From positions 1,533,001-1,597,000 of the forward strand of contig OZ025878.1 in assembly GCA_964019415.1 (NCBI GenBank): a stretch of 64,000 nucleotides of DNA. Reading direction: 5' to 3'. Below are positions 4,440 through 57,500 of this stretch, piece after piece (position 1 is the stretch's first letter; each line of letters begins with the position of its first letter). The notes beneath the pieces were generated by a model. It was not told the origin of the DNA. It worked only from the letters and a program-made list of their open reading frames with translations, and ran no database searches. Source of the DNA: Ianthella basta (lineage: Eukaryota > Porifera > Demospongiae > Verongiida > Ianthellidae). The position numbers and the translations under genes were made by a program.

Positions 4440-4831
4440 CAAATACAGTGATGGTAGCTACATAACAGGGATCTGCAAAAGAAAGCATGTGCATGCAGAT
4501 TGTTTACTGTCTTATGTATGCCAGAACTATGGATATTTACACCTGTAGTATACACATAACTATAAGGGCGCTTGCCCACATCTCCACAAGCACTCCTAGG
4601 GGTGACAGCAACATTTCCAACAAATTCTGTGGGGCAGACCGGAGGTGCGTATTCCCCTGGAGTGTAGTCTCGTACCCAAACCACTTCCGGCCGCCATTTT
4701 GAAATGGGCCGAAAGATGGTCTATGTCTGGGAGCTATGTGCAGATTCCTTGGCATTTATGGCGTAACTGTTAGCCTTGCAATTGCATAACAGCCGTAGTT
4801 TGCATTAACAGCGCTAGCAGCCATTCACACT

Positions 4832-5194
4832 ATGGAAGAGGATCGCTGTGCCTTCTGTGCAGGCAGTGGTGCGAACAGGTGAAGGCGCAATCTGTCTGCC
4901 ATTCTACGTCATGGTGGACCATTGTGCACCTTCCTGAGAACCGTCTGGCCTGCATTGTGGAGGCAGTTATCGAGCAGTCCGCGAACAGTGTACGTCTGTC
5001 GCTCGTGCTTCCAGAACCTGGACACTGGTGCAAACCGACTCTGTTCTCTGCGACAGTCTATCGCTACTTTAGAACAATCACTCGCCAGTTCAGAATATTA
5101 TCCCCTGGCATCAAGGACAACAGGAATTTTTGCTTCGGTGGATTCTCCCACTGTCGCTGCTCCCCTGCTACAGAGGATGTACCAATTACATCAA
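4832..5194 (+). pseudogene. Cys-rich (ZAD-like) first exon of a transposon gene
   Basis: From the ATG at 4832, 167 bp inside the left TIR end, the frame reads MEEDRCAFCAGSG. It has one TGA at codon 17, then continues to VCRSCFQNLDTGANRL and a short helical region (LRQSIATLEQSLA). It ends at a GTGAGT donor at 5195. The CxxC ... CxxCF layout followed by a short helix is what N-terminal zinc-binding modules of DNA-transposon proteins and ZAD domains look like. I infer it is the first exon of the element's own protein; downstream exons are not identified. The stop makes this copy defective. Confidence 0.5.
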
Positions 5195-54500: not shown

Positions 54501-57500
54501 ATGTAATTATTGTGCAACATTATGCCTCATTTGTGGCTGCAAGTACGTGCGACGGCTCGTGACACTTACCTGATCTTTCATAATAACCGTCAAAGGAGCG
54601 ACAGCAAAGACTATCGATGTCCCTTCGACCAGCAACACCAGGTCGAACACTTTCGGCAGGCACGCGTAGCACAGGCTCTTGCCGAAGCTGGTTGGCAAAA
54701 CAGCAAAAACATCCCTCCCAGAAACGATGCCAGACACAACCCGTTGTTGCTCTGGCTTCAGGATAGAATAACCAAGGCGCTGAATGGCTTCTGTCGCAGC
54801 GTATAACACTCTGGTCCATGCTCTGGTCCGCTGCCACTTGCGAACACGCAAGCGATAAATATTTCACACCTTTTCTGCAATCTGATTGGGCACGCAACCA
54901 TTGTGGCGTGCTGCACAAGTCAATGTATTAGACTTAACCTGACCCTTCTACGAGGAGGGGTCATGCGACGCCTGACTAAAGTCAGATAATTTATGGGTTT
55001 GGAAATTGTTGAAATCTTGCTGACCGAAAGGGGAGATAAGCACTAGACAATTTCGTGCTGTATGTGCCAGGAACGACGCTAGTGCTGGCCTGAATAATGG
55101 TGCCTACCCTTGGGCACAGGCTGATCAGGAAAGCACTGTATTTGAGTGTAGAAGGCAGAAATTCATTGGCAATTACAATACATTTGAATTGTCACTACAG
55201 AAACAAACTTAATGTTAAAGTGAATCATGGAAATTTAACAGGATACCACTAATACAATTACACATACCATTATAACACAATAGGGTAAAAGAAAATTTAT
55301 TTACACAGCTGAGAAGAAATAATATTTCAAAACATATTAATGTATTCATTACAGCAAAATAATCCTAAAATAAAACAAAATAACGGCAAATTAGTACCTA
55401 AGAGCCCTTGCTACTCAAGGTCCTAGACAAGGACTCTGTCTACGGTCCCCAGAACCGCTGCAGCATTACCAATTATTTGAATTGTCCTGTGGTTGCCGAT
55501 TTTTATGAATGATGCAATTTTAGAGTGAATATGATACCTCTGCTCTGTCTGTTATACATCTTGCCACAGAAGGTTGCCACCTCTATAGCCAGTGGCCCAA
55601 TTATATGCATCCATGCCTTTAGAGGTATGGTAGTGGACAATGCTGTATGCTATGAAGAGATGGGCTATGTGCTCAACCAAGAGTACGTAAGAGTGTGCAA
55701 TCATATAGCCTCACCATGGAAGGCATTTTTCAAAATGACATAGTAACACATCACATGTAAGCATGGTAAAAACATTAAGATCATAATTTTGCAAGTTCCA
55801 AATGCATAGCCCCAGTCACTTATCCCATGGCAGTTGCAGCTGGTGCAGAGTATGTGTGCTTCAGTGTGGAAGCAATGCTGAGAGGCTGCCGTGGGTGTAA
55901 GGATGTGTACAGTAAGAATGCACTATTGGTGAAGAGCTCCTGTGTCTAACTGAGCAAGCTAACACTCAGGATATGTTCACGGTGGCTGTGCTGAATGATG
56001 GGAACATCATATGCCATGTCTCACATAAGTTTTCTGCTGCATGTTCCATGTTTCTTCTTTGAGGCAGCTCGATCCTGTGTCAGACTACTGCTTCCACTCA
56101 CTATTGGGTGGATCCACCACAAAGTAGTATGGAATCTCGACCTGCTTCTTGCTTGCCCTGAATTTGTCTTGGAACTTTGCCTTCCAAATCTGAACACTGC
56201 TCTCCTTGACTGTGAAGCTTTTATTCTTTCATGAGTTAACAGATAGCTGTTGCGTTGCCTTGCAGTGTCAATGCAGCAGAAAGATCACTCAACACTCAGT
56301 CACAGTTGCACTGTCAGTCCAGAGCAGCAGATTCTGAGTTGACACCCGTCAGTAATCTACAGAGTCAATATATTTGCGACCACATGCAGCTGTCATTGGG
56401 GCTTGCACCACTACACTGCTCTGCATGGTTCAAGTGTTCACTGGCTGCCCACATGTCTAGTAGACTAGTTCATGACATTTGCTCATATTGGAGATCCCAA
56501 CCAATGTGCTGCTCATTTTCAATCTTAATGTGCATTCATGATCCGTTGAGGAAGTACCAACCTTGTGCACCTTGGTGCTCACATCCTAAATGGTAGCAGG
56601 ATTGATGGTGGTGGACTATGGGCCCTTAGGTAGAAGGAGTGCATCCACAAGCTTGAATCAACGATGTAGAGAGTCCTACATAGATATAACATTGAGATGG
56701 AGGAATTTTCCCAAGTTGATGTTAGCTCGTGAGAATCCTGACTACAGTTTCCCGCTATACAGTACTACGTACAAGTGGCGTTACAAGTGACTACTGTTAC
56801 CTAAGAATGTAAATGTGGTTACCATGCCTACATGTGATGTATTGCTGCATCATTTTGGAAAAATGCTGTTCCACGGGTGTAATGGATACATGGTTGCACA
56901 CTGTTATCTCTTATAATACTTCTGGCTTAACATAATGCTTGCACAAGCAATGCATCATTTTGCATTCACTGATTGCATGCCTTTATGTTTCATGTCACAG
57001 GCTGTGGTTGCCAACCAACACACAAAGAAGTACGTTCCTAGTGACATGAAATCTGAGCCCCCTTCTCAGACAGGTGAGTGTGTGCTTATGAGTAGCATAA
57101 TTTTACGGAATGCAGCAAAATTTTGGAGTAATAAGACAATTATTACTTGTTTCATGGATGAAGAGACACTGCAAAGCGAAATCATCCAAGTTCATTCACA
57201 CTAGCCAAAGTTTCACAGTTTTTTTCCCCGAAAGCTGAAAGCTGCCGAGATGTCTGAAAAAGAATAAAAACTGTGAAACTTTGGCTAGTGTGAACAAACT
57301 TGGATGATGTCAGTTTTACCTAGCCACTCAGGACTGTTCAAATGTGCAAAGCGAAAATTGTGCTCTGGGAATTTATTTTGGTGGTATATACATTTATTAC
57401 ACAAATGCACCATTTCACTACATACCTACACGGTGATAGTGCAGACCCTATTTACATGAACTGGTGAGTATGGTATTGTACATGTACAGTAGACATTCAC

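Follow-up and report, generated by a model that had tools for sequence, protein, structure and literature searches.

A helicase-encoding DNA transposon group, probably of AcademH type, behind four TAG...CTA repeats in the sponge Ianthella basta

Four TAG...CTA units with 9-bp target duplications

The DNA analysed here is a 64-kb stretch of the Ianthella basta genome (the window; contig C11 of a 209-Mb genome in 96 contigs). It contains four repeat units, el.1 to el.4, that begin with TAG and end with CTA and are very probably short or decayed members of an AcademH-type group of DNA transposons encoding a helicase. A first-pass annotation of the window had delimited these units at 4665-18119, 15430-16183, 19520-20204 and 54408-54978 and had reported 9-bp target duplications around all of them. 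Direct reading bears out both the coordinates and the duplications, that of el.1 with one mismatch, and so does a window scan for paired TAG..CTA ends (ends of 12 bp with up to 3 mismatches, and flanking repeats). The scan returned 8 matches, namely el.1 to el.4 at 9 bp, a pair at 16193-18056 belonging to a nested P-like element, and three at 6 bp that fall in a repeat array, while 20 shuffled windows (3-base blocks) gave 4 matches of 9 bp or more altogether, or 0.2 per window.

4656..4664, no strand: left 9-bp duplication of el.1, CCTGGAGTG (direct reading and scan)
4665..18119, + strand: el.1, a decayed TAG...CTA unit swollen by nested insertions; its 60-bp terminal inverted repeat (TIR) is homologous to that of complete 5.9-kb elements (reading, scan, TIR comparison with locus L092)
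18120..18128, no strand: right 9-bp duplication of el.1, CCTGAAGTG (direct reading)
15421..15429, no strand: left 9-bp duplication of el.2, CCCAGACCA (direct reading)
15430..16183, + strand: el.2, a 754-bp short member nested in el.1 (direct reading, genome search)
16184..16192, no strand: right 9-bp duplication of el.2, CCCAGACCA, sharing two bases with the start of the nested P-like element (reading and scan)
19511..19519, no strand: left 9-bp duplication of el.3, ATATTGTCT (direct reading)
19520..20204, + strand: el.3, a 685-bp member (direct reading, genome search)
20205..20213, no strand: right 9-bp duplication of el.3, ATATTGTCT (direct reading)
54399..54407, no strand: left 9-bp duplication of el.4, AAGTCAGAT (direct reading)
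54408..54978, - strand: el.4, a 571-bp member (direct reading, genome search)
54979..54987, no strand: right 9-bp duplication of el.4, AAGTCAGAT (direct reading)

An inner inverted repeat had also been described in each TIR. It is clear in el.2, where 0 and 0 of 100 shuffles did as well at the two ends; for el.1 (34 and 2 of 100 shuffles) and el.3 (8 and 11) the signal is weak, and for el.4 (83 and 42) it does not exceed chance.

Complete 5.9-kb elements elsewhere in the genome

The autonomous helicase transposon predicted from the window does exist outside it, at loci L069 (contig C5) and L092 (C18), each with a 5.9-kb element that has TAG...CTA ends and an exact 9-bp duplication. The L069 element (C5:5043701-5053200, located via RecQ matches) is 5914 bp long and flanked by TGTCCGACC. 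Its helicase is an intronless frame of 588 amino acids on one strand, beginning near the right end, in which Pfam recognizes DEAD (5e-25) and Helicase_C (4e-14) domains. The RecQ family model TIGR00614 scores 234.1 bits against a cut-off of 219.8, and the E. coli RecQ structure 1oyw matches at E 3.5e-47. The second gene runs from the left end on the opposite strand, has several exons and encodes DUF6589 in two pieces, 5726-6067 (1.6e-11) and 6225-7226 (1e-29); towards its end the frame is possibly broken, and we do not claim that this is a working copy. Locus L070 is 99.7% identical to L069, and the helicase frame is uninterrupted in both copies.

The L092 element (C18:6387201-6394200) represents a second, divergent family, 5940 bp long with perfect 16-bp ends and the exact duplication TGTTGTTAG. 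Its RecQ gene, in two reading frames, starts about 200 bp from the left end and carries DEAD and Helicase_C, and a DUF6589 gene runs inward from the right end. Identity between the two families is 33-49% in the helicase and 31-46% in four pieces of the putative transposase, whose first exon in L092 has no match in the comparison with L069. Three sister loci have the same RecQ and DUF6589 matches: one on C13 (5893 bp, exact duplication ATCATGGAG), one at C18:6339037 (5940 bp, exact duplication GGTCTGGCG) and one on C22, the left end of which lies outside the piece fetched. Because three full-length copies of the L092 family sit at different sites within their own exact 9-bp duplications, it is the whole 5.9-kb unit that moves. 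The TIRs of el.1 resemble those of L092, with 54 of 61 columns identical at the right end and 52 of 61 at the left.

Two further observations concern these loci. At 3410-3500 of L069, in the left TIR, lies a 91-bp TAG...CTA foldback, barely more than two TIRs, that has an exact 9-bp duplication of its own, TCTCGTTCC. Locus L071 (C7) was considered as a complete el.4-type element and rejected, since it has one el.4-type end only and a chimeric reading frame; at 5984-6601 (- strand) the el.4-type RecQ exon there runs in one open frame into further sequence, which by eye resembles a P2X-receptor-like C-terminal domain, and the frame is possibly an exonised transposon relic.

Pairing of RecQ and DUF6589

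DUF6589 (PF20231) has 58 matches in the genome (67 candidates, all scored; best E 4.5e-51) and no match in 14 control genomes. For RecQ, 74 of 833 candidates were scored and gave at least 81 matches. These form 40 DUF6589 clusters and at least 56 RecQ clusters. RecQ lies within 6 kb of 26 of the 40 DUF6589 clusters, where random placement would give 0.13, and 21 of these 26 pairs are convergent, with 249-830 bp between the matches. The RecQ exons are thus not found only as unrelated single captures, the outcome that the first-pass annotation had named as contradicting a helicase-encoding group. Counted from the RecQ side, 26 of 56 clusters are near DUF6589, and the remainder includes host RecQ genes and relics.

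Two other arrangements occur on one strand. In one related family DUF6589 comes first, 525 bp from RecQ, possibly as a single fused gene (C6:7526711-7533940, loci L154 and L093; C3:976476; C6:7520020). At C10:153491-160326 and C3:4512448-4518634 RecQ comes first, followed by DUF6589 with about 3.3 kb between matches.

Genome-wide copies of the four units

A first look across the genome gave 259 candidates for el.4, 527 for el.2, 222 for el.3 and 297 for the left end of el.1; these are not copy counts, and the best 40 of each set were scored. The duplication test was applied to subsets, picked either for their DNA rank or because both ends were listed, and a 9-bp duplication was accepted with at most one mismatch, for which the chance with a pair of random 9-mers is 3e-4. 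A 9-bp duplication flanks 56 of the 79 copies tested (the el.4 of the window being one of the 79): 27 of 39 for el.4 (from 40 scored, window copy included), 16 of 20 for el.2 (from 39 other scored copies), 7 of 10 for el.3 and 6 of 10 for el.1. The other el.2 copies comprise one with an exact 10-bp duplication (L096) and 3 without; among the other el.3 copies 2 have two mismatches and one lacks an end; and for el.1, 2 have no duplication and 2 lack an end. Other duplication lengths, which would have spoken against the proposed group, are therefore not what these copies show, their duplications being 9 bp and once 10 bp. Identity of the window's units to other scored copies is 88-95% for el.2 and 89-92% for el.4.

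A scan made without the TAG restriction on the first 68 loci, some of which overlap, yielded 76 cases. Of these, 28 had 9-bp duplications (26 of them TAG..CTA) and 16 had 7-bp duplications (9 of them CAT..ATG, the P-like family described below), with 19 at 4 bp and 13 at other lengths.

Short members as internal deletions

The short members had been read as internal deletions of a longer element. For one of them an alignment shows this origin: L155, a 780-bp unit with L092-type ends, consists of positions 5940-5596 of the L092 element (94% identical) joined to positions 459-1 (89%). It keeps the first exons of both the helicase and the putative transposase, the latter zinc-finger-like, in broken or degraded frames, and 7 of the 9 flanking bases agree between its two sides. 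By analogy with L155, el.2, el.3 and el.4 probably arose through the same kind of deletion. A search for the 37-bp end of L092 type, with at most 3 mismatches, gave 419 matches (204 + 215), against 0 for the reversed control pattern; in a list of 100 such places, every one exact, neighbouring ends pair into 23 units, 17 of which measure 774-794 bp. Two units were read, one of this 774-794-bp type and L156, which has 1240 bp.

Traces of the two genes in the window units are as follows.

15568..15690, + strand: left-end relic of a RecQ-like first exon in el.2, spanning the Q-motif region and truncated at the Walker A motif (open reading frame, present in a 21-copy consensus; motif by eye)
15763..16038, - strand: zinc-finger-like exon at the right end of el.2, placed and oriented like the putative transposase first exon of complete elements (CxxC...CxxCY in the consensus)
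54564..54800, - strand: RecQ first-exon relic in el.4, up to a GTAAGT splice donor (tblastn against the L069 helicase, 51% identity, E 1.3e-14)
9232..9456, - strand: RecQ N-terminal fragment in el.1, pointing the way a helicase gene of el.1 itself would (29% identity to the L069 helicase by tblastn, E 1e-4)
4833..5265, + strand: possible zinc-finger-like relic of a putative transposase first exon, in broken frame, some 170 bp in from the left terminus of el.1 (by eye; tblastn E 0.6; suggestive only)

Of the two members in which a RecQ first exon had been proposed, el.4 bears it by tblastn. In el.2, the weakest of the three RecQ fragments, it is recognized by motif, and the full L069 helicase has no BLAST match to it. 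The third fragment, placed at first pass inside the 13.45-kb el.1, is recovered with the full helicase, weakly. The 21-copy consensus of el.2 has the two-ended layout of the complete elements, a RecQ-like exon and a zinc-finger-like exon on the opposite strand. Its CxxC...CxxCY motif, of a kind seen in 1 of 2000 shuffles, is absent from the window's own el.2 copy, which is one cysteine short, and from el.1 (including 4833..5265), el.3 and el.4. In el.3 neither tblastn with the helicase nor the search for the CxxC motif found a helicase or transposase relic.

Absence of clear selection on the el.4 relic exon

The RecQ exon could have been kept in short elements for a function, for instance as a truncated helicase that represses transposition, and some observations would suit this. 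The frame of the el.4 exon is open in 28 of 39 copies, with a stop in 4 copies, and indels number 10 in the 231-bp exon compared with 30 in the other 342 bp, about half as dense, which speaks against neutrality. A first sample of 27 copies also gave a dN/dS of 0.54 with few indels; that sample had mostly been picked by protein score, and we have dropped the selection it seemed to indicate. With 39 of 40 copies ranked by DNA score, compared with their consensus, and with a model of CpG and transition bias fitted to the sequence outside the exon, dN/dS is 0.95 (0.80-1.16), not below that of one of the two other frames (0.92; the second gives 1.51). The exon is as diverged (4.5%) as the rest of the element (3.5 and 4.3%). 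We consider a retained function very unlikely. The short members would keep first exons because these exons lie close to the ends.

DUF6589 as a candidate transposase

In a 29-row alignment of DUF6589 proteins, the candidate catalytic residues D322, D493 and E743 (numbering of relative P0006) are invariant in 19/19, 22/22 and 24/24 covering rows, and equally invariant acidic positions are E440, D647, D668, D739 and D802. A zf-AD domain passes the cut-off (1e-9) in the Hydractinia relative P0038, and relative P0033 has a sub-threshold match to TNP-like_RNaseH_N (E 0.2). The protein search returned 0 relatives with the L069 gene, 3 with the L092 gene and 58 with the alignment as query. Where the host of a relative is named, it is a sponge (Ephydatia, Halichondria, Amphimedon), a hemichordate or Hydractinia, which places DUF6589 in several animal phyla.

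A scheme consistent with these observations would be as follows. The complete element of about 5.9 kb, bounded by TAG...CTA TIRs, usually has two genes that run inward from both ends, DUF6589 and RecQ. We infer that the DUF6589 protein, likely a DDE transposase, uses its zinc-finger-like N-terminus to bind the ends, which it cuts before inserting the element with a stagger of 9 bp, most likely by cut-and-paste. The RecQ-family helicase would probably unwind or remodel the ends or gap intermediates during excision, insertion or repair. Short members, having lost the middle and kept the end-near first exon of one or both genes, would be mobilised in trans.

Classification among known superfamilies

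AcademH is said, by the title of a 2020 paper by Kojima (Mob DNA 11:15), to occur in animals and fungi. According to PMC10045372, AcademH elements have 9- or 10-bp and AcademX elements 3- or 4-bp duplications, a difference related there to helicase versus nuclease. PMC10799480 lists DEAD and Helicase_C among the domains assigned jointly to AcademH, KolobokH or Helitron, and PMC8290104 reports widespread putative non-autonomous Mutator-like elements (MULEs) and Academ elements in a fungus. The Ianthella elements are like AcademH, so described, in their encoded helicase of superfamily II (DEAD, Helicase_C and TIGR00614 in L069; DEAD and Helicase_C in L092), in their animal host, and in duplications of 9 or 10 bp, which include, beside the copies counted above, those of L069, L092 and two L092 sisters, all exact. 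They differ from AcademH in having the helicase mostly as a gene of its own, in convergent orientation. In contrast to AcademX, the other Academ lineage, duplications here are 9 bp, and Pfam scans of the L069 and L092 exons tried found no nuclease family.

The first-pass annotation had left the choice between AcademH and Mutator, and AcademH is the better of the two given the helicase together with 9- or 10-bp duplications (PMC10045372) and the lack of any Mutator family in the transposase pieces scanned. The elements could still be thought of as MULEs that captured RecQ exons from their host, since 9-bp duplications, which the copies of el.1 to el.4 have, and long, structured inverted repeats are common in MULEs. 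Duplications in MULEs are of 8-11 bp, mostly 9 bp, and long terminal inverted repeats are shared as well. Yet in Pfam scans of transposase pieces, five from L069 and three from L092 (some L092 exons lay outside the scan), DUF6589 alone passes its cut-off and no MULE family is present, the same holds for eight full-length relatives, and RecQ stands beside 26 of 40 DUF6589 clusters, unlike random captures. In these elements the helicase gene belongs to the element, and we regard MULEs with captured exons as highly improbable. Kolobok elements with a RecQ helicase, KolobokH, share the placement of RecQ next to a transposase, if DUF6589 is taken as one. Kolobok inserts at TTAA, whereas the flanks here are unrelated 9-mers and the transposase pieces match DUF6589. 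PMC9587614 moreover reports RecQ-encoding KolobokH from fungi only, together with a red-alga Kolobok that has RecQ on the complementary strand. An assignment to KolobokH is extremely unlikely.

Assignment to AcademH has several points against it. The name itself rests on the helicase, the duplication length and the host kingdom, a likeness to a published description. Fourteen of the 40 DUF6589 clusters have no RecQ within 6 kb, and five of the 26 pairs are not convergent (three with DUF6589 then RecQ and two with RecQ then DUF6589, each on one strand). Twelve of the 39 el.4 copies lack any 4-12-bp repeat beside intact TAG/CTA ends, the C6 element (L093/L154) has matching ends without a matching duplication, and L070, which lies head-to-head with another end, has flanks that do not match. 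Among the few loci examined there is no complete element with el.2-, el.3- or el.4-type ends. As to the transposase, the first exon of L092 has no zf-AD match in Pfam, and the DUF6589 alignment has two matches in the PDB (E 0.83 and 1.1), which are not meaningful. A rival reading is a superfamily of its own, not yet described, whose transposase would be DUF6589 and which would be similar to AcademH in helicase and duplication length without being Academ; the name DUF6589 was indeed not found in the open-licence literature searched, in which, judging from listings, no paper is evidently about these elements. As helicase, 9-10-bp duplications and animal host jointly match the published account of AcademH, it would take a coincidence for a second, independent group to combine them all, and we think a separate superfamily unlikely. 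Only as a conjecture, and one that we expect to fail, would we go further and see in DUF6589 the DDE transposase of a distinct helicase-dependent superfamily, Academ-like and not Academ, in which RecQ has been a nearly constant partner, linked through deep divergence with its order changed at least twice. Membership of an AcademH-type group is the reading we prefer.

Implications

These results connect short, otherwise anonymous repeats, hundreds of them in this genome, with complete helicase-carrying transposons, and suggest that the Pfam family DUF6589 functions as a transposase. One family has three full-length copies within exact 9-bp duplications of their own, and in the other the helicase frame is open in two copies that are 99.7% identical; together they offer a practical place to study why a transposon carries RecQ, and the system could show whether the helicase explains duplications of 9-10 bp rather than 3-4 bp. 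For annotation there is a warning, as a RecQ-like exon of this genome is in many cases the relic of a transposon.

Passengers in el.1 and other observations

That the 13.45-kb el.1 is a single element of such size did not hold up on closer reading, as it contains el.2, a P-like element and two reverse-transcriptase fragments. The insertions other than el.2 are these.

7164-8399: reverse-transcriptase fragment in el.1 (RVT_1 over cut-off)
12469-13623: reverse-transcriptase fragment in el.1 (RVT_1 E 4e-5, below cut-off)
16191..18058, no strand: nested P-superfamily-like element, ends CATAGATAG...CTATCTATG, 7-bp duplication CCCAGAC (scan; PF21789 E 1.5e-5)

The transposase-like exons at 16314-18018, once considered as genes of el.1 itself, lie inside the nested P-like element and were ruled out. 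This element is a passenger, outside the coding capacity of el.1 and unrelated to the TAG...CTA group; it carries a TNP-like RNase H C-terminal exon (PF21789) facing another gene of unknown kind. The el.2 duplication CCCAGACCA takes in the two bases with which the P-like element begins, so el.2 must have inserted later. P superfamily elements have 7-8-bp duplications, and the nested element is like them in its CA...TG ends, its 7-bp duplication and its RNase H C-terminal domain. The same kind of ends is found at six other places, and by eye seven copies have CATAG..CTATG ends with a 7-bp duplication. The P-like repeats form a family of about 1.6-2.0 kb with CATAGATAG...CTATCTATG ends and 7-bp duplications, seen at 16191-18058 of the window and at L055-L058 and L065-L067. 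Large nested inverted repeats at 10747-15382 and 14418-15077, also in el.1, surround a reverse-transcriptase fragment.

Elsewhere in the window, positions 25400-42500 hold a dense array of direct and inverted repeats, the borders of which are the short palindromes CACATGTG, GCTGCAGC and GGCATGCC. Protein-kinase-like frames, recognized by eye, adjoin these transposons at two unrelated places, 18176-19213 of the window and 2374-3264 and 5019-5785 of L093.

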